Origin: Phyllobacterium myrsinacearum
Lineage (GTDB): Bacteria; Pseudomonadota; Alphaproteobacteria; Rhizobiales; Rhizobiaceae
DNA length: 64,000 nt
Direction of reading: 5' to 3'
NCBI RefSeq assembly: GCF_002980555.1
Contig: NZ_PVBT01000002.1
Coordinates: 558,001-622,000 of the forward strand
Part shown: in pieces, positions 48,702 to 63,801 of the stretch
Position numbering within the stretch: position 1 is the stretch's first letter
Layout: the number at the start of each line of letters is the position of its first letter
Notes under the pieces: model-generated
Databases searched by the model: none
Seen by the model: the letters and a program-made list of their open reading frames with translations, nothing else
What the model was told of the DNA's origin: nothing
Translations under genes and position numbers: made by a program

Positions 48702-49532
48702 TCATTCCAGCGGACGCCTGCTCTCCGGTTTGATGTCAAAGAACGCATCGACGTTTTGGCGCAGCCGGCCGAGTTCGGTTTGCATCTGCGGAACAAGAAA
48801 CATTGCATAAAGTGCAATGAGCAGGGCAAATATCAAATTCTTGACCGCCATTGACAGGTCGAACACATGCAGCTGCGGCGCCATGCGCGACAGGAAGGCC
48901 AGCATCAGATCCGCGATCAGCAAGGCGAGAACGATGGGGCCGATCTGAACCAGCGCCATTTGCATCATGCCATTCACTGTTCCGACGAAAAGCGGGAGGG
49001 TAGCGCCGGTGAGCACTGGCACGAAGTCGGTCACCGGCCAAATGCGGTAACTGTTGTAAAAGCTGTCCAGCAGAACCAGAAAGCCGCCGGAAGAAAAGAA
49101 CAGAACGATCACTGCAAGCGCAAAGAAAGTTCCGGTGATGCTGGTCTCCGTCACCGCTTGAGGATCGAGGAGCTGGGCCGCGGTGGATCCGCGTTGCAGG
49201 TCGATGAGATCGCCGGCGATTTCGGCCGCCCAGAATGGAATACTGAAGAGAAAACCGATGGCAAAGCCGATGATGAATTCCTTGATCATCATGGCGCCCA
49301 ACCATGGAATGGTCATCGGAGGGCGGCTTGCAAGGGTGCGCATGACTTCCGGAATAACCGGAATGCTGATCGCCAATGCCACGCCGGATCGTATGGGGCC
49401 TGTGATCCCCAACCGCACGAATATGGGGGATATGGTCATGAGACCAAAACCGCGCGCCATGGCGATGGACGTCGCCAGGAGTATGGCATAGCCCGCTTCG
49501 AAAAGTGGCAGCGTGATCATCTGCTGTTCCAT
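48702..49532 (-). CDS. sctT: T3SS export apparatus protein SctT (RhcT)
   Basis: 276 aa. It is a polytopic membrane protein of the SctT/FliR family, with about six TM segments and the conserved block AAEIAGDLIDLQRGSTAAQL. It is part of the SctR5S4T1 export gate. It is the last gene of the leftward T3SS operon. In rhizobial clusters rhcU usually follows rhcT; here a convergent thioesterase takes that place and sctU is elsewhere. Confidence 0.93.
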   Translation of the reverse strand: MEQQMITLPLFEAGYAILLATSIAMARGFGLMTISPIFVRLGITGPIRSGVALAISIPVIPEVMRTLASRPPMTIPWLGAMMIKEFIIGFAIGFLFSIPFWAAEIAGDLIDLQRGSTAAQLLDPQAVTETSITGTFFALAVIVLFFSSGGFLVLLDSFYNSYRIWPVTDFVPVLTGATLPLFVGTVNGMMQMALVQIGPIVLALLIADLMLAFLSRMAPQLHVFDLSMAVKNLIFALLIALYAMFLVPQMQTELGRLRQNVDAFFDIKPESRRPLE

Positions 49533-49540
49533 CAGCGTGT

Positions 49541-49807
49541 TCAGCGCGTCATGGCGGGAAACTCGTCAAGAACGCGGCTGGCAAGGGAGGTGACCTGCAC
49601 GCCGAGCGCCGGGCCCGCAACAATCAGGACCAGCATGACCGCGACGAGCTTTACGGTTTGGGGCAGCGTCTGATCCTGAATTTGTGTCAAAGCCTGAAGC
49701 AAACCGACACTGATGCCGATCACAATGGCCACGATCAGCGCCGGGGCTGAAACCATGAGGACGGTGAGCAGCGCACTTTGCATCTGTGCGAGAAAGGCAG
49801 TCTGCAT
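49541..49807 (-). CDS. sctS: T3SS export apparatus protein SctS (RhcS)
   Basis: 88 aa, normal for SctS/FliQ. Two TM helices are visible (SALLTVLMVSAPALIVAIVI and LVAVMLVLIVAGPALGVQV) with QALTQIQDQTLP between them, the family's conserved linker. It builds the export gate with SctR and SctT. It sits 4 bp after sctR and 8 bp before sctT. Confidence 0.93.
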   Translation of the reverse strand: MQTAFLAQMQSALLTVLMVSAPALIVAIVIGISVGLLQALTQIQDQTLPQTVKLVAVMLVLIVAGPALGVQVTSLASRVLDEFPAMTR

Positions 49808-49811
49808 GTTT

Positions 49812-50465
49812 TCACCTGTAGCTGAGAATGAGTCCGTGCATGAGCCGCGACCAGCCGTCGACGGACACGAACAGGAATATTTTGAGCGGGATTGAGATCA
49901 GGGTAGGGGATACCATCATCATCCCCATCGCCATCAGGACGTTCGAGACGATGAGGTCGATGACGAGGAACGGGATGTAGAGCAGGAAGCCGATCTGGAA
50001 TGCACGGGACAATTCCGAGCTTACGAATGAGGGAACAAGAACCACCAGATCATCGGGTTTTACGTTTGCCCGCGCCTCCTCGGACCAGATGCCTTCCGTC
50101 GATTGAAGGAAAAACTGCCGTTCGCTCTCACTGGAATAGCGCGCCAGATGTTCCTGCAGCGGGCCGCGCACGGTATTGGCTGCGCGCGTTATACCCTCCA
50201 CATTGCTCAGATCGATGGATTGCGTTTCCGCTGCCCGGTAAATATTGCCGACCAACGGCGCCGTCACATAAACCGTCAGGATGAGGGCGATGCCATACAA
50301 TACGAGATTGGGCGGCGATTGCTGGATGCCCAGCGCATTGCGCACCAGGAACAGAACAATGGATATCTTCAAAAAGCCCGTCATGGTCACGATGGCGAGC
50401 GGAATGAATCCCACCGATGTAACCAGCAGCAGGATCGGAAGAATATTGCCCTGAAGCTCAGTCAT
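49812..50465 (-). CDS. sctR: T3SS export apparatus protein SctR (RhcR)
   Basis: 217 aa from ATG 50465, which lies within the last codons of sctQ (8-bp overlap); the longer open frame upstream overlaps sctQ and is not used. FLKISIVLFLVRNALGIQQSPPN is preceded by TM1 and followed by the FliP/SctR C-terminal TMs and the LMAMGMMMVSP motif. It is the first export-gate component. Confidence 0.94.
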   Translation of the reverse strand: MTELQGNILPILLLVTSVGFIPLAIVTMTGFLKISIVLFLVRNALGIQQSPPNLVLYGIALILTVYVTAPLVGNIYRAAETQSIDLSNVEGITRAANTVRGPLQEHLARYSSESERQFFLQSTEGIWSEEARANVKPDDLVVLVPSFVSSELSRAFQIGFLLYIPFLVIDLIVSNVLMAMGMMMVSPTLISIPLKIFLFVSVDGWSRLMHGLILSYR

Positions 50466-51507
50466 TTGCACCAAGCTGCAAAATGCGAACGCCGAGACCT
50501 TCACCCAATCTGACAATATCGCCGCGGCCGATCTTGCTGCCGTTTGCGATAATGGCAACAGCACCCTCGTTGAGCGCTGCGACGGGTACGACGCTGCCTT
50601 CGGCAAGCGCCTTCACGTCGCGCAAAGCCATGTCCGTGCGCGCAAGCTCGAATATGACGCGAACAGAAAGACTGTCGATGGTTGCTTCATCCATTACCGT
50701 TCCCCTTTCCATGAAAATTTCATTGCCGTCGGGCTGTGAGATTGCCGCCGGACTCCAGCCGCTGGTAAGAAGAAGCCCTGGTTCCGATTGGATGCAGCGC
50801 GCCTGAAGCTGGCCTGCGCAAAGGGCATATAATTCTCCCGGCGCGGCGCCTTCACTGATGATCGTGTCTCCCGGCTTCAAAGCGGAGATTTCGGCCGTAG
50901 TCAGGGTTTGCGCGCCGGCCAGAATTTGCACCGGAACGGGCAAGTCCTCGACATCAACCGGTGCTTGCATGGGGAATGCATCCCATGCGTTGCTGAGAAG
51001 TCTGCCTGCCTCCGCATTCAGCCCGAGACGGACAACCCCGTCGAAGGATGCAAATGCGACGTGGAGATCAAGGTTGATGTCCGCAGTGCTCGCATCCGCA
51101 TCCGTGACAAACTGCAATGGCTGCGATATCGCCGTTTCAAACGGGAAGAGCAGGTTCTCCAGCGCCGCCTCGATCAGAACGGCCTGTTGAAGCGCTGGCA
51201 GCGTGTGGAATGAAGCGGGTTTGCAAAGACCACCCACCAGAGCCTCGACCAGACTGCCAGGCAAAGCGAGTTGAAAATTCCAGATACCGGCGGACACGTT
51301 GAAACTGCGCGATGCGTCGCCGGCGGACCAGGGGCGGGCGGACAGGCCGATGGTTATGGGTTTACCCCGCACGTCCGCGCGCAGGGACTGCCGGCGGCGA
51401 TAGAGGGCATTATGGGTGATCAGTGAGGCAGGGGACATGCTGGGAAAGGGCTGAAAATCCACTGCCCCATCAGGTTTTCCCGCATTGATTTTCTTCTTGG
51501 GCGTCAT
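50458..51507 (-). CDS. sctQ: T3SS cytoplasmic ring protein SctQ (RhcQ)
   Basis: 349 aa. The N-terminal two thirds are divergent, as usual, and the C-terminal SpoA domain (about 275-349; SLSVRVIFELARTDMALRDV and LGEGLGVRILQL) is clear. SctQ/FliMN-like proteins form the sorting platform beneath the export gate. Its start is 2 nt past the sctO stop and its end overlaps sctR. Confidence 0.88.
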   Translation of the reverse strand: MTPKKKINAGKPDGAVDFQPFPSMSPASLITHNALYRRRQSLRADVRGKPITIGLSARPWSAGDASRSFNVSAGIWNFQLALPGSLVEALVGGLCKPASFHTLPALQQAVLIEAALENLLFPFETAISQPLQFVTDADASTADINLDLHVAFASFDGVVRLGLNAEAGRLLSNAWDAFPMQAPVDVEDLPVPVQILAGAQTLTTAEISALKPGDTIISEGAAPGELYALCAGQLQARCIQSEPGLLLTSGWSPAAISQPDGNEIFMERGTVMDEATIDSLSVRVIFELARTDMALRDVKALAEGSVVPVAALNEGAVAIIANGSKIGRGDIVRLGEGLGVRILQLGAND

Positions 51508-51509
51508 GT

Positions 51510-51998
51510 TCAGGCCCGCCCTGCACTGAGGGAAGTCTTGTGAAAATCATCGCGATCATCATCTTCCATCTCAGCGCGCAAAAGCGATGCTGTCCTTTGT
51601 TCCGCTTCGAAGGCAGCCTCCAGCTGTTCAAGTGATTTCTTCCGGGCGAGATAGTCTGCCAGTGTTTTTGCCAGATCAGTGCGCATGTGATCGAGGTGCT
51701 CGCTTGCCCGGGAATGGGAATCGGCACTCCTGGCGAGTTCTTGATCTATCGCCAGAATATCCTGGCGGTAGCGCTCGAGCATGGCTTGGCTGACTGTGTT
51801 TCCCGTCAGGTTTTGCCTGTTTTCATCGTCCCGGACGGTCAATTCCGCCGCAAGTTCGAGCATGGCATTATAGGCCTTGGATCGCTGCGATTCAGCGTCA
51901 TTGACGAGCATCTGCTGAACAGACAAGGCATTCACTGCAATCTGCAGGCGCATTTTGCGTAAGCCCAGGAGCTTCTCAAATCTCTGCCGGTTCTTCAA
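51510..51998 (-). CDS. sctO: T3SS stalk protein SctO (RhcZ/Y4yJ-like)
   Basis: 162 aa from a TTG at 51998 that overlaps the sctN stop (TTGA) and has GGGAG eight nt upstream; GTG 52013 is the alternative. It is almost wholly helical with two long coiled-coil segments, like YscO/FliJ, the ATPase stalk. Its place directly after sctN and before sctQ is the same as in rhizobial clusters. Sequence conservation in this family is low, so the call relies on size, helicity and position. Confidence 0.78.
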   Translation of the reverse strand: MKNRQRFEKLLGLRKMRLQIAVNALSVQQMLVNDAESQRSKAYNAMLELAAELTVRDDENRQNLTGNTVSQAMLERYRQDILAIDQELARSADSHSRASEHLDHMRTDLAKTLADYLARKKSLEQLEAAFEAEQRTASLLRAEMEDDDRDDFHKTSLSAGRA

Positions 51999-53332
51999 TT
52001 TGCAAGCTCCCACATCCTGTCCAAGGTTTCATTGAACGTCGAATGTTCATGGCTTTCCTGCCGCAGGAAATCGGTGATGGCCTGATGCCTTTCGACAGCC
52101 CTGTCGGTAACCGCGTCTGAACCTGCCTTGTATTCATTGACGCGAAGCAGCAGTTCCACTTCTTCATAGCGCGCCATCATTTCCCGGATTGCGGTGGCGC
52201 TTGCCCTATGGCTTTCATTGGCGACTGCGTCCATCAACCGGCTGCGGCTGCGCAGTATATCAATCGCTGGAAAATGGTTTTTCTCCGCCAGCTGGCTGCT
52301 CAACGACACGTGGCCGTCAAGGATGGCCTTTACTTCTTCCGCCACTGGATCCAGCGTTTCGTCGCCTTCGGTCAGCACCGTATAAAGTCCGGTAATTGAT
52401 CCACCCACGCCGGGCCCGGAGCGCTCGAGGAGACGCGGAAGGGCTGCAAACAGCGATGGAGGATAGGCACGGCGCGTGCCGGGTTCGCCCGCCGCCAGAC
52501 CGATTTCGCGCTGTGCTCTGGCAAAGCGGGTAACACTGTCCATCAACAGAAGAACATCCTTGCCTTCGTCGCGAAAATATTCCGCGATTGCCGTGGCGCA
52601 GTGTGCCGCCTTGACACGTTCGATCGCCGGGCGATCGGAGGTTGCGACCACGGTTACCGCGCGCTTCCGGCCTTCGACGCCCAACTGGACATCGAGAAAT
52701 TCGCGCACTTCCCGGCCACGCTCGCCAATCAGGGCGATGACAACCACGTCCGCCTGGGTCCCGCGCACGATGCTTGATATCAGCGAGGATTTTCCGGCAC
52801 CCGGCGCACCGAAAATGCCGATGCGCTGGCCGCGAGCGACGGTCAAAAGGCCGTCGATGGCGCGTATTCCAAGTTGCAGGGGATCGCGGACCAGATCGCG
52901 CTGCAAAGCATTTACAGGCTCGGCCAAGGTGGGGTAAAGCGCAACAATCCCGGCGGCCGCATCCGGATCGCGGCCATTGTCGTTCACGATGTCCCCGAGG
53001 GCATTGACCACGCAGCCCAGCAATCCCGGCCCCACAGGAACCTGTATGATGCTGCCGGTCGGGATGACCTCGGCACGCGTGGACATGCCCGCCATATCGC
53101 CAATGGGGCTGAGAACGGCATCATCATTGTCGAATCCGATCACCTCAGCCGGAACGGTGCGGCCGGACACGGGATCGCGAATCTCGCATAACTCGCCAAT
53201 CCGGACCATCGGCAGGGAAGCATGGATGATGACACCCGTTATGCGGCGCACACGCCCATGCACCTGCAGCGGATGAGCGCTGACGGCAGCTCTTTGAAAG
53301 CGGTTCATGAGTCGGCTGAGGTCGCTTTGCAT
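51995..53332 (-). CDS. sctN: T3SS ATPase SctN (RhcN)
   Basis: 445 aa. Walker A GAPGAGKSS, the GERGREVREF block, Walker B LLLMDSVTRFARAQRE and the F1-beta-like core are all present. This hexameric ATPase unfolds and feeds substrates at the base of the T3SS. It starts just after sctL with a gap of 5 bp, and overlaps the sctO start. Confidence 0.96.
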   Translation of the reverse strand: MQSDLSRLMNRFQRAAVSAHPLQVHGRVRRITGVIIHASLPMVRIGELCEIRDPVSGRTVPAEVIGFDNDDAVLSPIGDMAGMSTRAEVIPTGSIIQVPVGPGLLGCVVNALGDIVNDNGRDPDAAAGIVALYPTLAEPVNALQRDLVRDPLQLGIRAIDGLLTVARGQRIGIFGAPGAGKSSLISSIVRGTQADVVVIALIGERGREVREFLDVQLGVEGRKRAVTVVATSDRPAIERVKAAHCATAIAEYFRDEGKDVLLLMDSVTRFARAQREIGLAAGEPGTRRAYPPSLFAALPRLLERSGPGVGGSITGLYTVLTEGDETLDPVAEEVKAILDGHVSLSSQLAEKNHFPAIDILRSRSRLMDAVANESHRASATAIREMMARYEEVELLLRVNEYKAGSDAVTDRAVERHQAITDFLRQESHEHSTFNETLDRMWELAN

Positions 53333-53337
53333 GGATG

Positions 53338-53949
53338 TCAGACCGCTCCAAATTCGGCTTCGTCGCGCGCAGCGATCAGAGCCTGGCGAATGATGGACAA
53401 TTGTGCATCAAGCCCGGCATTGACGACGGCGCTGGGAGACACGACGAGACAGTTCCTGCTATCCAGCCGGGGATCGCCGGTGATTCTGACAGACAGGCCT
53501 TTTTCGAGGCCGGTCGATATCTCCTGCAGAAGGTTTTTAACTTCCTTTTCCAGTTCGGGGGCGACGTAAACGGTAAGCGCGCGCTCATAGCGTAAAAGCT
53601 CGATGGCATTGCTTGCCAGTTTGGCGACCACAACCGGATTGTCGATTTCGCCGATCAGCTGTTCGACCACGGAGAGGCTGAGATCAATGACCTGCTCCTG
53701 CAGCGCTTCAAGATCGCGATCAATCTTGGTTGCGGTCTCGGCGACGAGGATCGCGGCATCCTGTTCGCCCTGCTGCAGCCCCTGCCGGTATCCTTCTGCT
53801 TTGCTTGCATCGAAAGCTGCCTGCGCCGCACTGCGGATATCATCCGCCTCCTGCCGCGCTGCGGCCAGCATTGCCTGCGCGTCGGTCCATAGTGCGGTAT
53901 CCCGCGCCGATATGATCCGGGCCGCCGGTGTTTTGGGCAGATCCATCAT
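53338..53949 (-). CDS. sctL: T3SS stator protein SctL (NolV)
   Basis: 203 aa. The N-terminal half is helical and Ala/Gln-rich (coiled coil) and the C-terminal half has the FliH/HrpE fold, with LSLSVVEQLIGEIDNP and VRITGDPRLDSRNCLV. It tethers the ATPase to the sorting platform. It overlaps the sctK stop by four bases and precedes sctN, as nolV does in rhizobia. Confidence 0.9.
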   Translation of the reverse strand: MMDLPKTPAARIISARDTALWTDAQAMLAAARQEADDIRSAAQAAFDASKAEGYRQGLQQGEQDAAILVAETATKIDRDLEALQEQVIDLSLSVVEQLIGEIDNPVVVAKLASNAIELLRYERALTVYVAPELEKEVKNLLQEISTGLEKGLSVRITGDPRLDSRNCLVVSPSAVVNAGLDAQLSIIRQALIAARDEAEFGAV

Positions 53950-54596
53950 GCGGCTGCCATATCCGCGCGCGCGTTTGATGGGTGCCGCACGATGACAAGA
54001 GCGCGTTTCGCATGGTCGCCGGAATGGGCCGGCGCAATTGTGTCATCACCCGGATATTTGAGACCAAACCAGTCGTTGACATAATCCGGCATGCTCTCCC
54101 GCCACGTTGAGATGCACGCCTGCCCGTCACGCTGCATGGCGGCCAGCAGCGTATCCGGATCGGTGACCGGTTCACCCGCGATAGCCAAATGGCGGTTTGC
54201 CAGCGCAAGCGCATAAAGGTCCTGGCCCAACGCGTCCTTCAGCCGATGGGCGGCCGCTGACTGGACGATCTGCGCAAGCGAATTGGCCAGGAACATCGCA
54301 CCGCACCGCAACTCGAAAGCCGCCACATCTTCCGGGGGCATCAGCAGCAGTTGCAGATCGCATGCTTCCAGTCTGGGCTCAACCGGAAGAGCAGAAAGCC
54401 GGAAATGCTCGCGCATGAGCCGCCGCGTGTTGTGACCAATGCGCTGCGCATTGCGCAAAAGCTCGATGCCTTCAGGCAGGAGAACCCCGGCGAAGCTTGC
54501 GGATAGGCGGTCCGGATGAATAAACCGCGCCGTATTGTTGACGTAAGTACTCCACGCGGATGAGGATTTCCGGCCGCTGCCCTGGGACATTGTCAT
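53946..54596 (-). CDS. sctK: T3SS accessory sorting-platform protein SctK (NolU)
   Basis: 216 aa without a signal peptide or TM segments. Weakly conserved helical features (FIHPDRLSASF, LGQDLYALALANR) and the place between sctJ and sctL match NolU/SctK. SctK caps the sorting-platform pods. ATGA overlaps connect it to both neighbours. The name depends more on position than on sequence. Confidence 0.75.
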   Translation of the reverse strand: MTMSQGSGRKSSSAWSTYVNNTARFIHPDRLSASFAGVLLPEGIELLRNAQRIGHNTRRLMREHFRLSALPVEPRLEACDLQLLLMPPEDVAAFELRCGAMFLANSLAQIVQSAAAHRLKDALGQDLYALALANRHLAIAGEPVTDPDTLLAAMQRDGQACISTWRESMPDYVNDWFGLKYPGDDTIAPAHSGDHAKRALVIVRHPSNARADMAAA

Positions 54597-55390
54597 GAGG
54601 TCTTTCCATTCCGGGCAATGTCTGTGGGCTCAAGTGCATAGGTCATGGGCACGCGCCGCTGCCAGAGAAGAAAACCGATTGTTCCAAGCAGCGCGAGAAC
54701 AAGCGTTCCAGCGATTGCCGCCATCCAGAACACCCGGCTTTCGCTTTCCCTGGTCAGCCACAAGCCCATATACTCCCGCACTTCCAGCTCGGGCGGCGTT
54801 TCGCGTGTTTTCTGCGGCGCTGCGACAGGAATGACCGAGACCTTCTCATAGCTCAGTCCGGCAATCCCGTTGGCGACCAGCGTCTTGATCTGCGGGATCA
54901 ATGCATTGATGTTCAGCGAGGGTTCGTGCCTGATAAACACCGAAGCCGAAGCTGGTGCGGCAAAACGATTGAGCGGGTCATTGTCCGCCAGAACCACGTG
55001 AACACGAGCGGAAAGAACCCCGTCGATTTCCGAAACCGTGCGGGACAATTCTTCGCTCAGGGCGTAGATCATCTGTGCCCGTTCCTGAACAGGCGAGGCC
55101 ACCAGCCCCTCCTTCTTGAAAACGCTGCCTATCGTGGCAAATTCCGCCTTCGGCAGCCCGTTTTCCGCCAGCAATGTCACCGCCTCGGCAAACTGATCCT
55201 CATCCACCAGGACGGTCAGCTTCCCGTCCTTCTGCGGTTTGCGCGTTGCCGAAATCCCATGCGTCAACAGCGTTGCCACAATCTGGTTGGCCTCGCGCTG
55301 GTCAAGATTGGTATAGAGATCCGATTTGCATGCCTGCAGAAAACATACGGCGGCTATCGCCAAAATCATGCGTTGGAACGTGTGCGTCAT
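54593..55390 (-). CDS. sctJ: T3SS inner-membrane ring lipoprotein SctJ (RhcJ/NolT)
   Basis: 265 aa from ATG 55390; GTG 55414 is an upstream option. A lipobox LQAC sits at the end of the signal peptide. The YscJ/FliF ring-building motifs follow (LDQREANQIVATLLTHGI, then RVHVVLADNDPLNRF and SASVFIRH), then a C-terminal TM (about 225-245). It forms the inner MS-like ring around the export gate with SctD. Confidence 0.95.
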   Translation of the reverse strand: MTHTFQRMILAIAAVCFLQACKSDLYTNLDQREANQIVATLLTHGISATRKPQKDGKLTVLVDEDQFAEAVTLLAENGLPKAEFATIGSVFKKEGLVASPVQERAQMIYALSEELSRTVSEIDGVLSARVHVVLADNDPLNRFAAPASASVFIRHEPSLNINALIPQIKTLVANGIAGLSYEKVSVIPVAAPQKTRETPPELEVREYMGLWLTRESESRVFWMAAIAGTLVLALLGTIGFLLWQRRVPMTYALEPTDIARNGKTS

Positions 55391-55406
55391 GGGATTGCTG
55401 TTTGCC

Positions 55407-55820
55407 TCAACCACCGCCGCGGGTCGTTTCGCGAACGCTGGTGGTCAGTTGAATGGGCACGTTGGCAATCATGTGCTGACGCTGCATCAGGTCAAATGAC
55501 ATCGTCAGCCCCTGTATCAGGTTGCTCATCTTGTCCTTGTTGAGAGGAGACTGCTGGTCCTTTGCCTGTCCGGCAGGCGTGGCTCCCACATCACCGGATG
55601 CCAGGAACCGCTGAACCTCAACTCTTCCGCTCTCAAGGCGATCGGCAACCGACTTGAACGTGGTGCCAAGGCTGCGGCCAATATCGACGGGACTTGCGCC
55701 GTGCGGCATGGATTGGATCGTTGTCGCGACATGTTCATAGATATTCTGCTGATTGGCAGAAACCGGCGTAACCGGCTGGTGCTGCGACACGCTGCTGACG
55801 GGAGCTATGGGGGTAACCAT
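55407..55820 (-). CDS. nolB: T3SS inner-rod protein SctI (NolB-like)
   Basis: 137 aa from ATG 55820 with GTGAGG ten nt upstream. The N-terminal half is Pro/Val/Gln-rich and unstructured; the C-terminal 60 residues are amphipathic helix (LIQGLTMSFDLMQRQHMIAN, then IQLTTSV), as in inner rod proteins that pack beneath the needle. It lies right before rhcJ, exactly like nolB. The match is by position and helix pattern. Confidence 0.75.
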   Translation of the reverse strand: MVTPIAPVSSVSQHQPVTPVSANQQNIYEHVATTIQSMPHGASPVDIGRSLGTTFKSVADRLESGRVEVQRFLASGDVGATPAGQAKDQQSPLNKDKMSNLIQGLTMSFDLMQRQHMIANVPIQLTTSVRETTRGGG

Positions 55821-56056: not shown

Positions 56057-56728
56057 TCAATTTGTTGTCTTGGTCAAAACAGTCTTGGGTTGCGCAGCCG
56101 GTGCGTCCGTGCGCTTGCGTGCGGTCTGCAGCTCCACAGTCTCATCGACGGTTGATCCGCGGCCGCGAAACACGCGCACTCTGGGATCGTCATCGGTTGC
56201 GGGCGGGGGCTGTATGGTTGAAATAACCTCCCTGGTGACGGCGATGTAGGATGGCGGCCCCGACACGCGCAGCGCCGCCGCATTCTTGCTGTAGGTGATC
56301 GAAAAACGCTCGTCATAAAGACCCATGCGCTTCATTTCCTGCAGCACGGCATCGCCGGTGAGCCGCCCCAGCTCGATAACCTGTGTTTTGAACTCATCAC
56401 TGGAACTGATGTGAAGAATGGCGCCATCGAAATACCAGTTGACGCCATTGCCCTGTGCAAGTTCATCCAGAAATTGTCCTGCCGTTTGCGCCTTGACCTG
56501 GCCGCGGATCTGGCCGCGCACCTGACCGTCGAGGACAACCGGAAATCCGAGATTACGGCCGAACTCCTTCATGGCTCCGGGCAAGTCCTGATTGATCAGC
56601 ACGTAATTGTAGGGTTTGCTCGCCCATTCCGGCAGTGCGGTCGCAGCCGATGTGCCACACGCCACCATCACAGCGGCTAGCGCCATCAGGAAAGCGGAAT
56701 GTCCCACATAGGTGATGTTTTCTGCCAC
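56057..56728 (-). CDS. rhcC1: T3SS secretin N-terminal domain protein (RhcC1/NolW-like)
   Basis: 223 aa. After a signal peptide (about 1-31) there is a secretin/TonB short N-terminal (N0) domain: DLPGAMKEFGRNLGFPVVLD followed by QFLDELAQGNGVNWYFDGA. A second N-domain (about 115-170) and a Thr/Arg-rich tail complete it; no secretin beta-barrel follows. Rhizobial T3SSs have the secretin split into RhcC1 and RhcC2, and this is the RhcC1 half. The barrel half is about 4.4 kb away on the other strand. It opens the leftward operon. Confidence 0.88.
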   Translation of the reverse strand: MAENITYVGHSAFLMALAAVMVACGTSAATALPEWASKPYNYVLINQDLPGAMKEFGRNLGFPVVLDGQVRGQIRGQVKAQTAGQFLDELAQGNGVNWYFDGAILHISSSDEFKTQVIELGRLTGDAVLQEMKRMGLYDERFSITYSKNAAALRVSGPPSYIAVTREVISTIQPPPATDDDPRVRVFRGRGSTVDETVELQTARKRTDAPAAQPKTVLTKTTN

Positions 56729-57368: not shown

Positions 57369-58274
57369 ATGATGTTGATGAAGCAGATTCCGGGCGGCAC
57401 AGGCGAATTGACGTTGAATGTCCTCGATGGCGTTCATCGCGGTGTCGTGGTTCCCATTTCCGGTGATGATTGCCAAATCGGCTCTTCCACCGACTGCGAT
57501 CTGTTTTTGAGCGACAGTTCGATAGAGGAACGTCACTTCTCTATTCGCCGCGCGGGGGCAATGGTCGTTATCGGTGCTCATAATGGTGAGGTTGTCATCA
57601 ACAACCGCACAACGCTCGAAATCGGCAAGGGCATGCGCACAAGGCTGCCCGTGAGGATTTCCGCAGGCGGCGTTTCCATGGTTCTCAATGGGCCGGCGAA
57701 AATGAAGCCGGATTTGCAATCACGCCTTCAGCCATGGCGTAAATTCGGGTTGATTGGCGGCTGCATTGCCTTGCTGGCCGTGTCGATCGCGCTCGTTCAG
57801 GCCGGCATTGCCGGTAATTTTGACAGTCGCCGTGCCGGTTTCGAGACTACCGCCGCGTTGCAGGTTGCGCCCGTATCCGCAGCGGCAGGAGATCCCCGTC
57901 AGGTGCTCAGCCAGATGCTGGCTGACAATGGCCTTGAGGCTCTAGATGTTCAATGGGAGGGATCGCGTGTGCATGTCGGCGGTGCGGTCGATCAGGCGCA
58001 GATGAAAAAGTGGACTGATGTCCAGTACAGATTTGATAGCCAGTATGGCAGCCGCAACGTCGTGTCGAGCAGCGTTCACGAAGAGGCAAAGAGAATTCAG
58101 CCGAAATTCAAGCTGCAGGCGGTCTGGTTCGGAGAAAAGCCCTATGCGATTGCCGCTGACGGTTCGCGTCTCTACACGGGTGCCGCCTTGGAAGACGGCT
58201 GGATCATCAAGGAAATCGGGTCGGACAGACTTGTCGTCAAACGCAACGCGGAAGAATTCACGCTGACATTCTAA
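57369..58274 (+). CDS. sctD: T3SS inner-membrane ring protein SctD (Y4yQ-like, FHA domain)
   Basis: 301 aa. An N-terminal FHA-like domain (about 10-110; IGSSTDCDLFLSDSSIEERH) is followed by a single TM (about 125-147; IGGCIALLAVSIALVQAG) and a periplasmic ring-building part. SctD proteins form the outer inner-membrane ring and link to the secretin. The FHA domain lacks a typical phosphothreonine pocket, as in other SctD. Its place before sctV matches y4yQ. Confidence 0.85.
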   Translation: MMLMKQIPGGTGELTLNVLDGVHRGVVVPISGDDCQIGSSTDCDLFLSDSSIEERHFSIRRAGAMVVIGAHNGEVVINNRTTLEIGKGMRTRLPVRISAGGVSMVLNGPAKMKPDLQSRLQPWRKFGLIGGCIALLAVSIALVQAGIAGNFDSRRAGFETTAALQVAPVSAAAGDPRQVLSQMLADNGLEALDVQWEGSRVHVGGAVDQAQMKKWTDVQYRFDSQYGSRNVVSSSVHEEAKRIQPKFKLQAVWFGEKPYAIAADGSRLYTGAALEDGWIIKEIGSDRLVVKRNAEEFTLTF

Positions 58275-58289: not shown

Positions 58290-58685
58290 ATGGCGCTTGA
58301 TCTGCGTCGCACTGAAAGCCGGGAGCGCGCTGAGCGGCTGTTGCCATCCGCCGCCGATCGTAGCGGCACGTCCCCCGCCACGGATGCGCAGTCTTTTGAA
58401 ACTGCGCTGCGCAGCACCAGGCTTTTCAACGAACGCGGGAAAAATGCCAACCGCAAGCGCACGGACAAGTTCTCGCGGGTCGACGCATCGGCGATTGGAC
58501 GGCTCAAGGGGTTCCATAACGAAGAAATGCTTTTGCATATTCTCGAGCATGTATTGCCTCTCCTGGAACTGGGGCCGGACGTTGCCGCCCTTGCGGTCGA
58601 GCTGATGCAGGAGGAAATCGATAAATGCCGGGATGTGAATGGCCGAATTGCAGAGGTAAAGTCCATTGAACTTCAACGAGCGTGA
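58290..58685 (+). CDS. small T3SS-operon protein of unknown function
   Basis: 131 aa with GGAGGG just upstream. Charged N-terminus (many Arg/Glu/Ser) and a C-terminal helical half (GFHNEEMLLHILEHVLPLLE). No signal peptide. It lies between sctD and the TPR chaperone-like gene and overlaps the latter by 20 bp. It may be a chaperone or export-control protein; no family was recognised. Confidence 0.65.
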   Translation: MALDLRRTESRERAERLLPSAADRSGTSPATDAQSFETALRSTRLFNERGKNANRKRTDKFSRVDASAIGRLKGFHNEEMLLHILEHVLPLLELGPDVAALAVELMQEEIDKCRDVNGRIAEVKSIELQRA

Positions 58686-59025
58686 CAGCGCCGACTATCT
58701 TCACACATTGGGCCGGCTGTACTGGCGCGCGGGAAATCTCGATCGCGGCCTGGTGTTCCTGCTGCTGGCGGCTCGTGTCGCCCCCGATGATGCCGCCATC
58801 CTCAAGACGCTTGTGATGGTGTTTATCGAACAGGGAGCGGCCACGCGCGCTTTGACGACCATCGACCGCATGGCGGACCTGGGCGAAGAGTTTCAGCTGG
58901 AGCTTGCGGCCTTGGAAAGCCGCGCCCTCTGGACCGCGGGGCAATATCAGGAAGCCCGTGATGCTTTCTCCGACTTCATGACCAGGAAGTCAAAATCCGC
59001 AACGATTTCTCCGGCCGGATCCTGA
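58666..59025 (+). CDS. TPR-like T3SS chaperone candidate (Y4yS-like)
   Basis: 119 aa from TTG 58666 (AGAGGT nine nt upstream). It is helical with TPR-like repeats: LHTLGRLYWRAGNLDRGLVF then AARVAPDDAAILKTLVMVFI and ALWTAGQYQEARDAFSDFM. Small TPR proteins next to sctV, such as Y4yS in rhizobia or needle chaperones in other T3SSs, bind a small export substrate; the 56-aa protein upstream is a candidate partner. The gene ends 2 bp before sctV. Confidence 0.75.
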   Translation: MNFNERDSADYLHTLGRLYWRAGNLDRGLVFLLLAARVAPDDAAILKTLVMVFIEQGAATRALTTIDRMADLGEEFQLELAALESRALWTAGQYQEARDAFSDFMTRKSKSATISPAGS

Positions 59026-59027
59026 CG

Positions 59028-61139
59028 ATGCAGATGCTCCTGCAGCTGAACCAACTGGCACGAATGGCGGCGCGGCGCACCGACCTCGTCGTTGCGGTCA
59101 TGGTGCTGCTGGCAATCAGCATGATGATCCTGCCCCTGCCGACCGTGATGGTCGACGTGCTGATCGGCATCAATCTTGCCTTTAGCCTGCTGGTGCTGAT
59201 TGTGGCCTTTTATATCTCCAGGCCGGTGGAGTTCTCGGCTTTGCCGTCTGTCATCCTGTTGGGAACGTTGTTCCGCCTGTCGCTCACGATCACGACCACG
59301 CGCCTCATTCTGCTTCAGGCCGATGCAGGTGATGTGGTGAATACGTTCGGGAACTTTGTCGTGGGTGGCGAGATCGTTGTCGGTCTCGTCGTGTTTCTGG
59401 TGATCACCGTCGCCCAGTTCGTCGTGATCACCAAGGGTGCCGAGCGCGTGGCCGAAGTGGCTGCACGCTTCACCCTGGATGCGCTGCCCGGCAAGCAGAT
59501 CAGTATTGATAATGAAGTGCGCAACGGCGACATAGACGCGGCGGAAGCCAAGATCAAACGGCAGAATCTGGAGCGGGAAAACCAGTTCTACGGCGCCATG
59601 GACGGCGCAATGAAATTCATCAAGGGTGACGCGATTGCCGGTATCATCATCATCGGAATCAATCTGATTGGCGGGCTCAGCATCGGCATCTGGCAACGTG
59701 GTCTGTCATTCGGCGAGGCTGCCCACACCTATTCGCTGCTGACGGTCGGAGACGGCCTGATCGCACAAATACCGGCTCTGCTCGTCTCGGTTGCCTCGGG
59801 CGCCGTTGTGACCCGCGTTGCCTCGCACGGCAATCAGGACCTGGGCACCGAAATCGTCGGGCAGCTGGGTGCCGATCCGCGCGCGATCTCCCTTGCTGCG
59901 GTGATCCTTTTCCTGCTTGCGTTTGTCCCCGGCATGCCCGTCACCGTCTTTCTGTCGCTCGCGGCCATCGCCGGCGGCCTTGCATTCATCCGCAGGCGCC
60001 AGATCAGGGTGGAGAACACCGTCTTTGAGCTGGAGAATGAAGCCAAGGATCTTCAATCCGAGACACCGGAGCCATCACGCGAAACCATGTCCCGGCTTGC
60101 CGTCTGGCTCGGCGAGGATCTGGGCAAGGTCATTTCGGCGGAAAAGTTTGCTGCGGGTGCCGAGACGATCAAACGGCGCATTCTTGTCGATCTCGGCATC
60201 AATATTCCGCAGGCGCAGCTGTGGCGGGCCGAGGATGGCGAGAAGAATGATTTCCGCCTTGACCTTGAGGGCGTGCCGATCGTGGAAGGAACGATCGAGC
60301 CAGAGCATCTGCTGGTGCTGGATGCAGCGACCGATCTGGACCTGATGAGCATCGATTACGACGATGCGGGGACGTTGATCGGCCGCAGGTCAACCTATTG
60401 GGTGCACAAGCAGCACGAGCAGAAGCTCATGGACGCTGGCATTCCTTATCACGCTCCGGACGCTGTTCTGCTTGAAATCATGTTCCATGCATTGCGGCGT
60501 TACGCTGCGCATTTTGCCGGCATTCAGGAAACGAAAGCCCTGCTGGCCGCCTGTGAAAGCCAATACGGTGAACTGGTCAAGGAAGCGGTTGAGGTTTCTT
60601 CCGTGCAGAAGATTTCTGAAGTTCTGCGCCGCCTTGTCGAGGAGGATGTGCCCATCACCAATATGCGGGCCATTCTGGAAACGATCGTGGAAAATGCGCC
60701 GCAGATCGAGAATGCGCATCAGATGACAGAACTGGTGCGAAGTGGTTTGGCCCGCCAGATCAGTCATCGCCGCGCGGAGAAAAACCGCATCATCCCGGTG
60801 TTCATCCTGACGCGGCAGATTGAAGAAGCCATCAGGACAGCCTTGAGACAGGGAAACTACCTGCAGGACGATGTGTTGAAGCCGCTCATTGATCAGGTGA
60901 GTGCATTGTTGAACTCGGGCGATCCGATGTTGAAGCGTTCGGTGCTGACGTCGATCGATATTCGCCGGCAGATTCACAGCATCCTTGCCGGCCAGAATGT
61001 CGATATTCCGGTGCTTTCCTATCAGGAAATTGCCTCAGAATTCAATGTGCAGTCATTGGCGACAATCGCCCTTCCTGCACCGGAAAAGCCTTCCTCGCTG
61101 AAGGCGGAACGCAATGACCAGACGGAAACGGCCGGATAG
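59028..61139 (+). CDS. sctV: T3SS major export apparatus protein SctV (RhcV)
   Basis: 703 aa, normal length. Eight TM segments cover about 1-320, including the FHIPEP-type block FYISRPVEFSALPSVILLGT and ERVAEVAARFTLDALPGKQ. A large cytoplasmic domain follows. It forms the nonameric export ring that receives substrates. It follows the TPR gene by 2 bp, and its end may overlap the secretin gene if the earlier ATG 61114 is used. Confidence 0.96.
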   Translation: MQMLLQLNQLARMAARRTDLVVAVMVLLAISMMILPLPTVMVDVLIGINLAFSLLVLIVAFYISRPVEFSALPSVILLGTLFRLSLTITTTRLILLQADAGDVVNTFGNFVVGGEIVVGLVVFLVITVAQFVVITKGAERVAEVAARFTLDALPGKQISIDNEVRNGDIDAAEAKIKRQNLERENQFYGAMDGAMKFIKGDAIAGIIIIGINLIGGLSIGIWQRGLSFGEAAHTYSLLTVGDGLIAQIPALLVSVASGAVVTRVASHGNQDLGTEIVGQLGADPRAISLAAVILFLLAFVPGMPVTVFLSLAAIAGGLAFIRRRQIRVENTVFELENEAKDLQSETPEPSRETMSRLAVWLGEDLGKVISAEKFAAGAETIKRRILVDLGINIPQAQLWRAEDGEKNDFRLDLEGVPIVEGTIEPEHLLVLDAATDLDLMSIDYDDAGTLIGRRSTYWVHKQHEQKLMDAGIPYHAPDAVLLEIMFHALRRYAAHFAGIQETKALLAACESQYGELVKEAVEVSSVQKISEVLRRLVEEDVPITNMRAILETIVENAPQIENAHQMTELVRSGLARQISHRRAEKNRIIPVFILTRQIEEAIRTALRQGNYLQDDVLKPLIDQVSALLNSGDPMLKRSVLTSIDIRRQIHSILAGQNVDIPVLSYQEIASEFNVQSLATIALPAPEKPSSLKAERNDQTETAG

Positions 61140-61170
61140 ACCGGCAGGCCAGGTCGGGGGACCCAGAAGA

Positions 61171-62529
61171 GTGAAATACCTGATGCGCAATAGGAAATGG
61201 CCCTCCGGCAGGGCGCCCGGCATGATGCTGTGCGTGCTGCTTCTGGGCATGATATCGATGATTGTTATGAATGATTCTGCCCACTCGCAGACGATCAGCG
61301 TTGATGCCATGACCGGTCAGCCTCTGAAGCTGACGCAAGGGCAGGGGGTCATCATCCGCTTTGATCAGCCGGTTGAATCGGTGTTCGTGGCGGACACCCA
61401 GATCGCTGATGTCCGTGTGGTTTCCCCGGGCGCGATCTATGTTTTCGGATCGGCGGTCGGCACCACCAATCTCATAGCGCTCAACGCTGACCAGAGTTTG
61501 CGCGGAACCATGAAGCTCATTATTTCGGGCAATACCGATCCGGCAAAGCAGTCGATGAAGACGCTGCAACCCAACACCATCATCGACGTGAAGCTGTTTG
61601 GTGAAAAGACCGTTGCCACGGGTAAAGCGCGCTCGGTCGGCGAGGCCGTGGACACGGAATCCGTCATCCAGTCTTACGCCAAGCCTGGCAATCCTCCCAT
61701 CAACAACACGACGATACAGGGCGCCAACCAGGTCAATATCCGCGTGCGGTTCGCCGAGGTGTCGCGCAATTCGCTGGAACGCTACGGCCTTAACTGGAGC
61801 GCTCTGATCGAAAAAGGTTCATTCTCATTCGGCATCGTCAAAGGGAACCCCCTGCAGACCGTGCCGGGCGGTATCAATGCGCATCTGGGAACCGGTAATG
61901 TGAACGTCGACGTTCTGCTCGACGCGCTCCAGAACAACGGTATTCTGACAGTTCTCGCAGAGCCGAACATCACGGCGGTAACCGGACAGACCGCCAGCTT
62001 CCTCGCCGGCGGTGAAGTGCCGATCCCTATCCCAGCCGGTGACCGGCAGATCGGCATCGAGTACAAACAATTTGGTGTCTCGCTGCAGTTTACACCGGCG
62101 CTTCTTCCCAACAATCGCATCTCCCTGCAGGTCAAGCCGGAGGTCAGCACCATTTCGGCGGCCACGGGTGTCTCCATCGGCGGTGTCAGCGTCCCGGGTT
62201 TCAAGGTGCGCAGGGCAGACACGACGGTTGAAATTGGCAGCGGTCAGACATTTGCCATTGCCGGCCTTTTCCAGAGAGAAGAAACGCGGGAGTTGGAGAA
62301 AACCCCTATTCTTGGCGATGTTCCCATCCTGGGAAGCCTGTTCAAATCGAAGAAATTCCAGCGCAACGAGACGGAGCTTGTCATTCTTATCACGCCGTAT
62401 CTGGTTCAGCCACGCTCGGACAGGTCATTGAAGACACCGCTTGATAGCCCAAGCGGTGCGTTGTCGGCTCCGGTCGCCAAGAAACGGCAGGTCGCGAAAA
62501 AAGGATATGGTTTCTATGTGGGAGATTGA
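61171..62529 (+). CDS. secretin barrel protein, CpaC-like (RhcC2 position)
   Basis: 452 aa from GTG 61171 (GGGGG about 10 nt upstream); ATG 61114 and ATG 61183 are alternatives. After the signal peptide, the N-terminal domain (QPVESVFVADTQIADVRVV) is the pilus-assembly (T2SS/T3SS pil_N) kind used in CpaC/RcpA of Tad pili. NIRVRFAEVSRNSLERYGLN, LAEPNITAVTGQTASFLAGG and the C-terminal TPILGDVPILGSLFKS with ETELVILITPYLV are the CpaC secretin pattern. It takes the RhcC2 place and should form the T3SS outer-membrane pore together with RhcC1. Confidence 0.88.
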   Translation: MKYLMRNRKWPSGRAPGMMLCVLLLGMISMIVMNDSAHSQTISVDAMTGQPLKLTQGQGVIIRFDQPVESVFVADTQIADVRVVSPGAIYVFGSAVGTTNLIALNADQSLRGTMKLIISGNTDPAKQSMKTLQPNTIIDVKLFGEKTVATGKARSVGEAVDTESVIQSYAKPGNPPINNTTIQGANQVNIRVRFAEVSRNSLERYGLNWSALIEKGSFSFGIVKGNPLQTVPGGINAHLGTGNVNVDVLLDALQNNGILTVLAEPNITAVTGQTASFLAGGEVPIPIPAGDRQIGIEYKQFGVSLQFTPALLPNNRISLQVKPEVSTISAATGVSIGGVSVPGFKVRRADTTVEIGSGQTFAIAGLFQREETRELEKTPILGDVPILGSLFKSKKFQRNETELVILITPYLVQPRSDRSLKTPLDSPSGALSAPVAKKRQVAKKGYGFYVGD

Positions 62530-62533
62530 GACG

Positions 62534-62986
62534 ATGATCGTGAGCCCACGCCGGATTCTGCGCGTTGCCGGATTGTGCATCCTTGTCGGCGCGAGCGGGT
62601 GCCAGACCCAGCCCGAGCCCTATTCGCCCAATTATCATTATGTAACGACTGGCCCTGTCACGCCTGACGCCAATGGTAAAGTCGTGCGCAAAGGCTATGA
62701 CCGGCCGGGCAGCAAGGGATATGCAGCCGAAGGCCGCATGCTTGTTCCGGACGCCTGCACAACACCCGACAAGACGCCGGATGCACTGTATCTGCCATCG
62801 GGATGCGCCAATAATCTCAATCTGCAATTGATGGCGGAAAAGGAAGGCGACCTGGTGCGCGGCCGGGATATGGGCCCTGCCATGGCCGCGCCTGTGGCAC
62901 GGGCGGCAAGGCGCGTGATTGATGGGGAAGACCATCGTTCAGGTGGCAAAGCGCCTGAATCCACCACCAATGTCGGGGGAATTTAA
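62534..62986 (+). CDS. CpaD-like lipoprotein of secretin module
   Basis: 150 aa from ATG 62534 with GGGAG nine nt upstream. The signal peptide ends in a lipobox, ASGC (residue about 24). The C-terminal section has SGCANNLNLQLM then DLVRGRDMGPAMAAPVARAA, matching the conserved GCA-x-x-x-NL-x-x-M ... DLV-x-GR-x-x-GP tail of CpaD/RcpB pilus lipoproteins, but the N-terminal half is shorter. It follows the CpaC-like secretin by 4 bp. I infer it stabilises or targets the secretin; a y4xK-type counterpart exists next to rhcC2 in rhizobia as far as I recall. Confidence 0.78.
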   Translation: MIVSPRRILRVAGLCILVGASGCQTQPEPYSPNYHYVTTGPVTPDANGKVVRKGYDRPGSKGYAAEGRMLVPDACTTPDKTPDALYLPSGCANNLNLQLMAEKEGDLVRGRDMGPAMAAPVARAARRVIDGEDHRSGGKAPESTTNVGGI

Positions 62987-63006
62987 ACAGATTGGAGGTC
63001 AGGCTG

Positions 63007-63801
63007 TCAGCCGGAGGCAAGCACGCCAATCGCCTTGGCACGCGATGCCGGATCCTTGATGGTGACGGCATTGGCGGCCTGACGAAGGATGGTTTCCTTG
63101 CCGGCTGCCGTCATCTCGGGAACATTGACCGCGCGTGCCTCGTCGGTGCGGCCTGACATGCGCAGAATGACCGCGTAATTGATAAGCTGGCGCCGTTCCA
63201 CCAAGGGTGAATTGACCACGTCCTGCATCGTCGAAGCGGCAACCGGGAACTTGCCGCCAACGGCCTGCGCCAGGGCAAGGTTCGTACGGGTATCGAGTTT
63301 TCCAGGCTCCATCGACAGTGCCTTGCTGAAGGCCGTTTCGGCATTTTCAGTTTGGCCAAGCAATATATAGGCGGTACCAAGCTTGTTGTAGACTTTGCCG
63401 GACGGCGCATGCGCGACTGCGGCATTGAGTGACCGGATGGCACCCTGGGCGTCGCCCTTCTGCAATTGAATGGAGCCCAATCCAACAAGGGCTTCGCTGC
63501 TGTTGGCATTTGCGCCTAGCATGGTGCGGTAGGCGGCCTCCGCGCCGTCAAGATCATCCGCTGCTTCCCGCGCTTTTGCCAGCCGCAGTTGAATGGCCGG
63601 ATCCGTCGAAGAGGTTGCGGCGCGCTCGTAGAGGGCAAGCGCCGTTCCGCGGTCGCCGCGCTTTTCAACATCCGCCGCGAGCTTTATCAATCTGGCCTGG
63701 TCGGTCATTTGCGGGGTCTGTGTCTGTGGCGCGGTGTTGCAACCGCAAAGGGCGAGCAATACGCCGCCATATGCCAAGGCATTTGCCCACCGTCGTGCCA
63801 T
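63007..63801 (-). CDS. TadD-like TPR lipoprotein
   Basis: 264 aa from ATG 63801 (GGGGGGAAG upstream); the frame opens at 63828. The signal peptide ends LCGC, a lipobox. TPR units follow: RGDRGTALALYERAATSSTD, DDLDGAEAAYRTMLGANANS and GQTENAETAFSKALSMEPGK, then TRTNLALAQAVGGKF and a GRTDEAR segment as in TadD of Tad pilus operons. It is tail to tail with the CpaD-like gene and head to head with sctU. TadD-type lipoproteins act in pilus secretin assembly, so a pilotin-like role is inferred. Confidence 0.8.
   Translation of the reverse strand: MARRWANALAYGGVLLALCGCNTAPQTQTPQMTDQARLIKLAADVEKRGDRGTALALYERAATSSTDPAIQLRLAKAREAADDLDGAEAAYRTMLGANANSSEALVGLGSIQLQKGDAQGAIRSLNAAVAHAPSGKVYNKLGTAYILLGQTENAETAFSKALSMEPGKLDTRTNLALAQAVGGKFPVAASTMQDVVNSPLVERRQLINYAVILRMSGRTDEARAVNVPEMTAAGKETILRQAANAVTIKDPASRAKAIGVLASG

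Follow-up and report, generated by a model that had tools for sequence, protein, structure and literature searches.

It has long been asked how a secretion machine is able to exchange its channel in the outer membrane. For type III secretion systems (T3SSs) of the Rhc type, Abby and Rocha (2012; PMC3459982) derived the secretin RhcC2 from Tad systems, regarded RhcC1 as a remnant and described the channel as Tad-like. In the Rhc-I system of M. loti, Y4yS is a TadD-like tetratricopeptide repeat (TPR) lipoprotein whose loss lowers RhcC2, and mlr8762 is a CpaD homologue (PMC4311626); four Rhc-I copies are already labelled CpaD family in public records. The Tad origin of the secretin, the TadD-like pilotin and the CpaD homologue were thus already known in Rhc-I (2012, 2015). 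The Rhc-II system of P. syringae, T3SS-2, has a split secretin and a facing TPR gene (PMC3574062); PSPPH_2522 and the TPR gene are not named there as CpaD and TadD relatives, and the words Tad and lipoprotein are absent from the portion of that text available. A 2015 commentary described subgroup II as lacking y4yS and subgroup III as lacking rhcC2 (PMC4500985). Denise and others (2019) left open, in the part of their paper available, whether the acquisitions of the secretin and of TadD in Tad systems were linked, and S. meliloti pSymA is described as carrying a secretin, a lipoprotein and a TPR protein as an orphan trio (PMC10934763). Among the papers listed by searches of the open-licence literature, we recognised none on such a trio, on its tail or on a reduced CpaD in Rhc-II. 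Here we analyse a trio of this kind in a 64,000-nucleotide stretch of DNA (the window; positions 558001-622000 of contig C2, NZ_PVBT01000002.1) from the 5.4 Mb genome of the plant-associated bacterium Phyllobacterium myrsinacearum. The open reading frames (ORFs) at 61171-63801 of the window encode a secretin and a small lipoprotein, with the gene of a TPR lipoprotein running towards them; sctV precedes and sctU follows these genes in an Rhc-II T3SS whose rhcC1 is split. The features of the trio are as follows.

61114-62529, plus strand: ORF of the RhcC2-type (Tad-type) secretin, likely start at 61171 (GTG) or 61222 (ATG)
61318-61512, plus strand: pil_N, the CpaC-like N-domain, residues 69-133 (PF13629, 67.4 bits, above cut-off)
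61924-62406, plus strand: secretin barrel domain, residues 271-431 (PF00263, 153.6 bits, above cut-off)
62509-62526, plus strand: putative C-terminal docking tail GFYVGD at the end of the S-domain (matches the loose tail pattern defined below)
62534 (ATG)-62986, plus strand: small lipoprotein with the CpaD C-terminal domain only; lipobox ASGC, Cys codon 62600-62602
62783-62896, plus strand: CpaD tail signature GCANNLNLQLM...DL..GR..GPA (Pfam match at residues 93-130; invariant profile columns)
63007-63801 (ORF from 63828), minus strand: TadD-like TPR lipoprotein, proposed pilotin; lipobox LCGC, Cys codon 63739-63741; TPRs
63280-63282, minus strand: Asn183 codon of the TPR lipoprotein (Asn column of the alignment)

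We interpret the trio as the outer-membrane unit of the Rhc-II T3SS, descended from the Tad outer-membrane unit, and put the probability of this reading at roughly 0.74; the secretin, the TPR lipoprotein and the small lipoprotein would serve as channel, pilotin and belt, respectively. At the level of sequence comparison, all three proteins are homologous to their Tad counterparts, the secretin tail and a groove Asn are conserved, the gene order is kept and the three genes occur together almost universally in Rhc-II loci. From these observations we infer the binding of the tail, the pilotage, the belt and the link to RhcC1.

Co-occurrence was assessed in a collection of 533 confirmed relatives, of which the best 80 loci as ranked by an RhcC2 profile were used (stretches of up to about 21 kb). 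SctV and the CpaD-like gene were present in all 80, a separate secretin ORF in 79, the TPR gene in 78 and RhcC1 in 61. In 77 loci the CpaD-like gene lay directly 3' of the secretin; in 74, no more than 300 bases separated it from the TPR gene, whose strand was opposite to that of the secretin in 67 loci and the same in 11. As for the two loci without the TPR gene, the genome of one (L083) carries it elsewhere (contig C20, 266.5 bits), and the other (L028) has a match to 25 residues of the TPR C-terminus, seemingly at the edge of an 8.2 kb contig. No locus had a match above 50 bits to CpaB, CpaE, CpaF, TadB or TadC, the single CpaF-like match (L050) scoring 41.6 bits. The hosts include Phyllobacteriaceae, Rhizobiaceae, Rhodobacter and Paracoccus types, Labrys, Pseudomonas and Halomonadaceae. 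Since the 80 loci are the best matches of the RhcC2 profile, this constancy holds within Rhc-II and not for all T3SSs; in the one Rhc-III case, R. etli p42d, SctN, V, R, J, U, T and D were found and the trio was not, nor was rhcC1 with the query used.

Some individual loci deserve separate mention. A Klebsiella pneumoniae plasmid, pAP855 (L011), carries an Rhc-II-like T3SS with matches to the Tad-type secretin, the CpaD-like protein and the TPR protein; the plasmid is typed as conjugative, and insertion sequence elements flank the T3SS cluster on both sides. Plasmids of Sinorhizobium meliloti GR4 and LMB1 (L129, L130) harbor Rhc-II T3SS clusters with the trio. In Pseudomonas sp. KNUC1026 (L052), sctV lies within an ORF of 1154 residues and no separate secretin ORF was found at the secretin match; the two genes may be fused, or the record may contain an error.

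A sequence-only reading of this DNA had placed a secretin, a lipoprotein with a CpaD signature and a facing TPR lipoprotein inside an otherwise Rhc-type T3SS with a split RhcC1, and both the profiles and the synteny confirmed this arrangement. The concern that the genes might belong to an adjacent tad locus was not borne out: neither the window nor the 18 kb beyond it matched CpaB, CpaE, CpaF, TadB or TadC at E 0.01. The complete Tad locus of this genome is located on contig C7 (L007) and encodes CpaC, a CpaD of 232 aa and, in facing orientation, a TPR lipoprotein resembling TadD. In blastp against this locus, the secretin of the trio reached 30 per cent identity (E 2e-50) and the TPR lipoprotein 22 per cent (E 5e-7), and the CpaD-like protein gave E 0.91. 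Together with the location on C7, these values indicate that the trio is neither part of an adjoining tad locus nor a recent copy of the resident one. The genome has three secretin-domain genes, namely the window copy, the CpaC of the Tad locus and one in a second Rhc-II T3SS. The last, on contig C2 and 541 kb away, was considered as a candidate Tad locus and rejected, as it belongs to an Rhc-II T3SS (near position 78912; L006) with its own trio; its secretin is 66 per cent identical to that of the window, and all three genes are on one strand, the TPR gene being on the operon strand.

The secretin combines the Secretin domain with pil_N and lacks the N-terminal domains of SctC, and it lies in a T3SS locus with a separate RhcC1, as expected of RhcC2. 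Among solved structures, the PDB profile search ranked the Tad secretin RcpA first (8odn, 184 bits), followed by a "type II and III secretion system protein" (151 bits), PilQ (79), GspD (74) and the SctC protein InvG (30.5). In a tree of 90 secretins, the Rhc-II, Rhc-I and Tad sequences grouped together against 28 outgroup rows with a support of 100. The outgroup comprised eight GspD, six PilQ and one SctC (L163) above the family cut-offs and 13 others, of which two (L164, L165) reached no family cut-off and 11 were named by the fetching search only; in this tree, as in the tail counts and rank controls below, outgroup rows bear the names given by that search; ten were checked, with one SctC, six PilQ and one GspD above cut-off and L164 and L165 above none. 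A more careful tree with six outgroup rows, from which long or odd sequences (L163, L202, L152, L151, L135, L169, L177, L164, L167) were omitted, separated Tad and Rhc from the six PilQ at 100/100, and the Rhc-II secretins formed one branch (87/87; 100/99 without the outgroup). These trees include 24 hand-picked Rhc-II rows and omit L012 (Halomonas), whose secretin is in two frames. The proposal that the secretin is CpaC-like was thus upheld by both pil_N and the trees. A grouping with the secretins of type II secretion or with YscC was looked for and not seen, GspD and SctC being excluded by the tree or the scores; a real SctC is present in the tree of 90 secretins only, as a single row (L163), and was otherwise compared through scores.

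The small lipoprotein is located directly 3' of the secretin and shares its C-terminal domain with CpaD. A profile built from 20 relatives was run over 29 genomes (that of P. myrsinacearum, G050 and 27 genomes chosen as CpaD-bearing outside Rhc-II). Among the 27, the C-terminus of a CpaD was the top match in 23 (21 Tad; two of Rhc-I type, G143 and G123), with modest E-values, the best being 1e-6; this repeated landing on one gene is beyond chance. In profile-profile comparison, hhalign gave a probability of 98.4 and E 4e-15 over 66 columns against six Tad CpaD sequences, and a probability of 82.5 and E 1e-5 against six Rhc-I CpaD sequences. By these profile tests, the CpaD signature is real. 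The OmpA-like N-terminal domain of CpaD is absent, with 51 residues only between the lipobox Cys32 and Cys84. In Caulobacter, the N-terminal part of CpaD is OmpA-like and peptidoglycan-binding, and the model has the protein encircling the secretin as a belt (PMC13170226). A complete Caballeronia Tad locus likewise has a short CpaD (124 aa), which indicates that the shortening is not peculiar to T3SSs.

The TPR lipoprotein was found to be nearer to TadD than to other TPR proteins in both a profile search and a tree. With its profile, the TadD of the Tad locus was the top match in 15 of 16 genomes, which were chosen since a Tad TPR protein had already been seen there, and in the tree the Rhc-II proteins grouped with TadD and Y4yS against 12 PilF at 100/100. 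AlphaFold2 modelled it well (predicted local distance difference test, pLDDT, 90.3); the model matched many TPR proteins in Foldseek and VIA, TadD not being among the matches listed. The trees are compatible with one recruitment of the parts by Rhc-I and Rhc-II as well as with separate ones: a single clade of all Rhc sequences was not rejected in the approximately unbiased test for the secretin (p 0.351 and 0.363), the TPR protein (p 0.386; L011 and L192 omitted) or the two joined (p 0.257).

A further link between the secretin and the TPR lipoprotein is the extreme C-terminus. Assembly in P. aeruginosa requires the final four to five RcpA residues, which bind the groove of TadD; D139 lies in this groove and is Asn in other TadDs (PMC10499894). 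Tad secretins mostly end in GF[IY]x[DEK], most Rhc-I secretins in GFIIE and those of Rhc-II in GFYVE, GFYMN or GLIVK types, with GFYVGD in the window. A loose pattern (G followed by F/Y/L/M and a further two to four residues up to the C-terminus) was matched by 79/79 Rhc-II, 7/7 Rhc-I and 30/31 Tad secretins and by 2/28 of the outgroup, and a strict pattern by 78/79, 6/7, 21/31 and 0/28, respectively. Among background ORFs, the loose pattern occurred in 138/3907 unannotated and 73/1198 annotated non-secretin ORFs and the strict one in 4/3907 and 2/1198. Both patterns were composed after the tails had been inspected; the 79 Rhc-II secretins are from the 80 loci, and two of the Rhc-I were placed by the tree only. 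On the side of the groove, a PDB match of Caballeronia TadD residues 107-207 to 8odn_B 45-146 placed the D139 column at an offset of 61, that of the nearer, C-terminal end, and this column contains Asn in 21/21 Rhc-II, 20/20 Tad and 2/2 Y4yS proteins and in 2/12 PilF. With this offset, both the groove Asn and the tail of its cognate secretin are present in the window. In M. loti, a C-terminal FLAG on RhcC2 lowered the secretion of NopA without abolishing it (PMC4311626), which fits a functional tail, although other explanations exist.

The donor was approached by ranking Tad loci with the Rhc-II profiles. Among the 19 loci outside the own genome with all three genes, the five nearest by secretin were, in order, L098, L153, L096, L158 and L154 (ranks 1, 2, 3, 6 and 10 in the full secretin list of 31, the loci in between having no TPR gene detected). 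They ranked 1, 5, 3, 4 and 2 of 31 by CpaD, for which there is no outgroup control, and 2, 1, 6, 3 and 4 of 20 by the TPR protein. In a PilF-profile control for slow change, the same loci ranked 20, 5, 12, 19 and 4 of 20. The Spearman correlations were 0.67 for secretin and TPR (n 19), 0.52 for secretin and CpaD (n 30) and 0.64 for CpaD and TPR (n 19), with L047 excluded from the secretin profile; as the loci are related, the p values are not independent evidence. These rankings, which are not a resolved tree, support a joint origin of the trio in Rhc-II without proving it, and by sequence similarity a single Tad lineage is the most likely source of the trio. The Tad loci with the nearest scores were those of Rhodospirillales and Burkholderiales.

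Several observations weigh against this interpretation. The highest-scoring NCBIfam model for the secretin was GspD (127.7 bits, cut-off 351), ahead of PilQ (105, cut-off 284) and SctC (78.9, cut-off 238), all below cut-off and with no CpaC model listed. The small lipoprotein missed the cut-off of Pilus_CpaD (PF09476; 19.3 bits against 31.1, E 0.001, positions 154-191 of 200) and had no NCBIfam match; its profile failed in four of the 27 genomes (G055 and G012 without a match, G051 and G059 matched elsewhere) and did not match the Tad CpaD of its own genome. Its AlphaFold2 model was poor (pLDDT 60, predicted template modelling score 0.29), and its PDB profile search returned two matches (E 0.35 and 0.65). 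For the TPR lipoprotein, the Pfam and NCBIfam matches were general TPR models with no TadD model among them (best NCBIfam match PrsT, 56.9 bits, cut-off 312), and in its own genome two unrelated TPR proteins outscored the Tad TadD, which was third after the T3SS copies. In the TPR trees, Rhc-II was not nested within TadD, the separating fork being weak (84/40; 61/24). The Asn column hangs on the choice of offset, as an offset of 62, taken from the other end, leads to the neighbouring Leu column, and no confident position was obtained for the remaining contact residues of TadD. In Caulobacter, moreover, the TadD orthologue CpaO is dispensable (PMC13170226). As for the rankings, PilQ profiles placed the five secretins at 5, 7, 1, 21 and 12 of 31 (rho 0.45) and GspD profiles at 6, 3, 2, 5 and 7 of 31; outgroup profiles thus partly mirror the secretin ranking, which may in part reflect slow change. 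For the Rhc-I trio, no such agreement was seen (secretin 1, 2, 3, 8, 20 and CpaD 5, 4, 20, 25, 1 of 31; Y4yS 3, 8, 4, 1, 20 of 20). The argument for a shared lineage is weakened by the GspD control and by these Rhc-I rankings. For the two lipoproteins, the sequence-only reading was supported with qualifications: the lipobox and the CpaD tail signature of the one and the nearness of the other to TadD were borne out, but the former keeps the C-terminal part of CpaD only and the latter has its exceptions at home. Outside T3SSs, the best matches were mostly CpaD C-termini and TadD rather than unrelated families.

As to mechanism, all parts of the trio would be exported by Sec, and the TPR lipoprotein would be lipidated and then sorted to the outer membrane. 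Acting as the pilotin, it would carry the RhcC2 secretin there, its groove gripping the extreme C-terminal tail as that of TadD grips RcpA and so helping insertion and ring assembly, and the secretin would form the outer-membrane channel. The reduced CpaD, which keeps the C-terminal domain and has lost the N-terminal region, may pack against the secretin barrel; that the C-terminal domain is the part of CpaD in contact with the barrel is our own suggestion, no passage on this point having been found in the available part of PMC13170226. RhcC1 would bridge the inner rings to the Tad-type N-domain of the foreign channel, following Abby and Rocha (PMC3459982). A bolder form of this proposal, which we consider somewhat better than an even chance, is that a T3SS acquired the whole Tad outer-membrane unit, docking tail included, in a single cassette, which took the place of most of the older SctC. 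If so, secretin swaps would work because the assembly helpers travel along with the channel, and the T3SS version would have shed the domain through which CpaD anchors the pilus machine to peptidoglycan.

The alternatives concern the unity of the trio, the function of its smallest member and the direction of transfer. The most serious of them, though doubtful in our view, is that the small lipoprotein is not a working CpaD and has another job, such as that of a chaperone or a peptidoglycan filler; its alignment to CpaD covers no more than about 66 columns, it lacks the N-terminal domain and its predicted structure is unusable. However, its position directly 3' of the secretin in 77 of the 80 loci, the Cys...GC..N...M...DL..G pattern shared with Tad CpaD and the short CpaD in the complete Caballeronia Tad locus argue for a CpaD role. 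It is also conceivable, but clearly less likely, that a Tad locus supplied only the secretin and the CpaD-like gene next to it, the TPR lipoprotein being recruited separately from the many such proteins available and converging on the same tail. Such a history would suit the abundance of TPR proteins, two of which outscore the Tad TadD in the own genome, the weak support (61/24) for the separation of Rhc-II from TadD, and the distance between y4yS and rhcC2 in Rhc-I; the TadD top matches in 15 of the 16 selected genomes, the Asn column dividing TadD, Rhc-II and Y4yS from PilF, and the agreement of the three proteins in their nearest Tad loci, a pattern not seen with PilF, tell against it.

A reversed direction, in which the trio arose in an Rhc-type T3SS or a common ancestor and Tad systems acquired it from there, appears very improbable. 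It draws on the PilQ root, which puts Rhc-II beside all sampled Tad and Rhc-I secretins (95/76) instead of within them, and on the Rhc-II TPR proteins, which branch likewise, weakly (84/40). Against this, the root branch is very long, which makes the rooting unsure, Rhc-I lies within the spread of Tad, and the retained SctC remnant, RhcC1, points to an older secretin that was replaced, as argued in PMC3459982. Descent of the trio from the Tad outer-membrane unit is the explanation that we prefer.

The surrounding genes were assigned with Pfam and NCBIfam, and the Y4YQ_C, SctV and SctJ matches identify the T3SS as Rhc-type. Upstream (5') of the trio lie sctD, a SctY-like chaperone gene and sctV, with sctJ and other core genes on the opposite strand.

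48702-53949, minus strand: sctT-S-R-Q-O-N-L block, named via synteny to the annotated pT1293a cluster
54593-55414, minus strand: sctJ (TIGR02544, 230.6 bits)
56057-56728, minus strand: rhcC1, N-terminal SctC remnant (TIGR02516, positions 2-165 of 463, 89.1 bits)
57369-58274, plus strand: sctD, Y4yQ type (TIGR02500, 87.8 bits; Y4YQ_C, 72.7 bits)
58666-59025, plus strand: SctY-like TPR chaperone without a lipobox (NF052415, 60 bits, below the cut-off of 70)
59028-61139, plus strand: sctV (TIGR01399, 752 bits)

The SctY-like gene was considered as a pilotin and rejected, since it has no lipobox and matches the SctY chaperone family, below cut-off. Past the end of the window come sctU and, directly 3' of it, an L,D-transpeptidase gene (L005:1997-2626), both named through matches to annotated relatives. 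Among the stretches of the 80 relatives, 26 contain a match to the latter, all of them from alphaproteobacteria, and so do L006, L008, L009, L129 and L130; the enzyme may shape peptidoglycan for the T3SS machine. The T3SS is flanked on both sides by very large proteins with similar starts (40676-46957 of the window and L005:3971-7558), which are possible translocon or secreted proteins; the pT1293a protein in the matching position is labelled DUF4781.

The closest named relatives are Phyllobacterium plasmids and contigs, with secretin identities of 93.6 and 91.3 per cent on two plasmids. The gene order is identical to that of the annotated Phyllobacterium clusters and of pNGR234b T3SS-2, and the core genes follow the arrangement of the T3SS-2 of pNGR234b and P. 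syringae, which places the locus in Rhc-II. The described Rhc-II systems (pNGR234b T3SS-2; P. syringae T3SS-2 with hrcIIC1/C2, PSPPH_2521-2524) share the order sctV, secretin, small lipoprotein, TPR gene and then rhcC1 or sctU, and the split secretin and facing TPR gene of P. syringae are arranged as in the window. A channel, a probable pilotin and a CpaD remnant are thus found together in alpha- and gammaproteobacterial Rhc-II T3SSs, with the tail and the groove Asn conserved, and the trio offers an answer to the 2015 commentary, in which Rhc-II has no y4yS-like pilotin (PMC4500985). The idea of the sequence-only reading that a whole module was recruited is supported by homology, co-occurrence and the rankings, but the Rhc-I parts were already in print and the trees fit one recruitment as well as several. 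Taken together, our analyses suggest that outer-membrane parts can move between machines as a set.

Compared with Rhc-I, the resemblance lies in a Tad-type secretin with the same tail, an adjoining CpaD-family lipoprotein (Y4xK/mlr8762) and the TadD-like Y4yS; in contrast, the CpaD relatives in Rhc-I have a greater length (ORFs of 186-302 aa across six loci) and keep an N-terminal region, and Y4yS, with 179-182 aa in two loci, is the shorter TPR protein and is located beside sctV rather than the secretin. With the Tad unit (RcpA/CpaC, CpaD, TadD), the trio shares a secretin with pil_N and the tail, the CpaD C-terminal domain, a TPR lipoprotein and the order of secretin and CpaD, but it serves a T3SS, the N-terminal domain of CpaD is gone, and CpaB, CpaE, CpaF, TadB and TadC were not found nearby. 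The canonical SctC (YscC/InvG) and its pilotin have the same role in the T3SS, and RhcC1 corresponds to the N-terminal part of SctC, whereas the barrel protein in the window is of the Tad type, scoring 78.9 bits against an SctC cut-off of 238.

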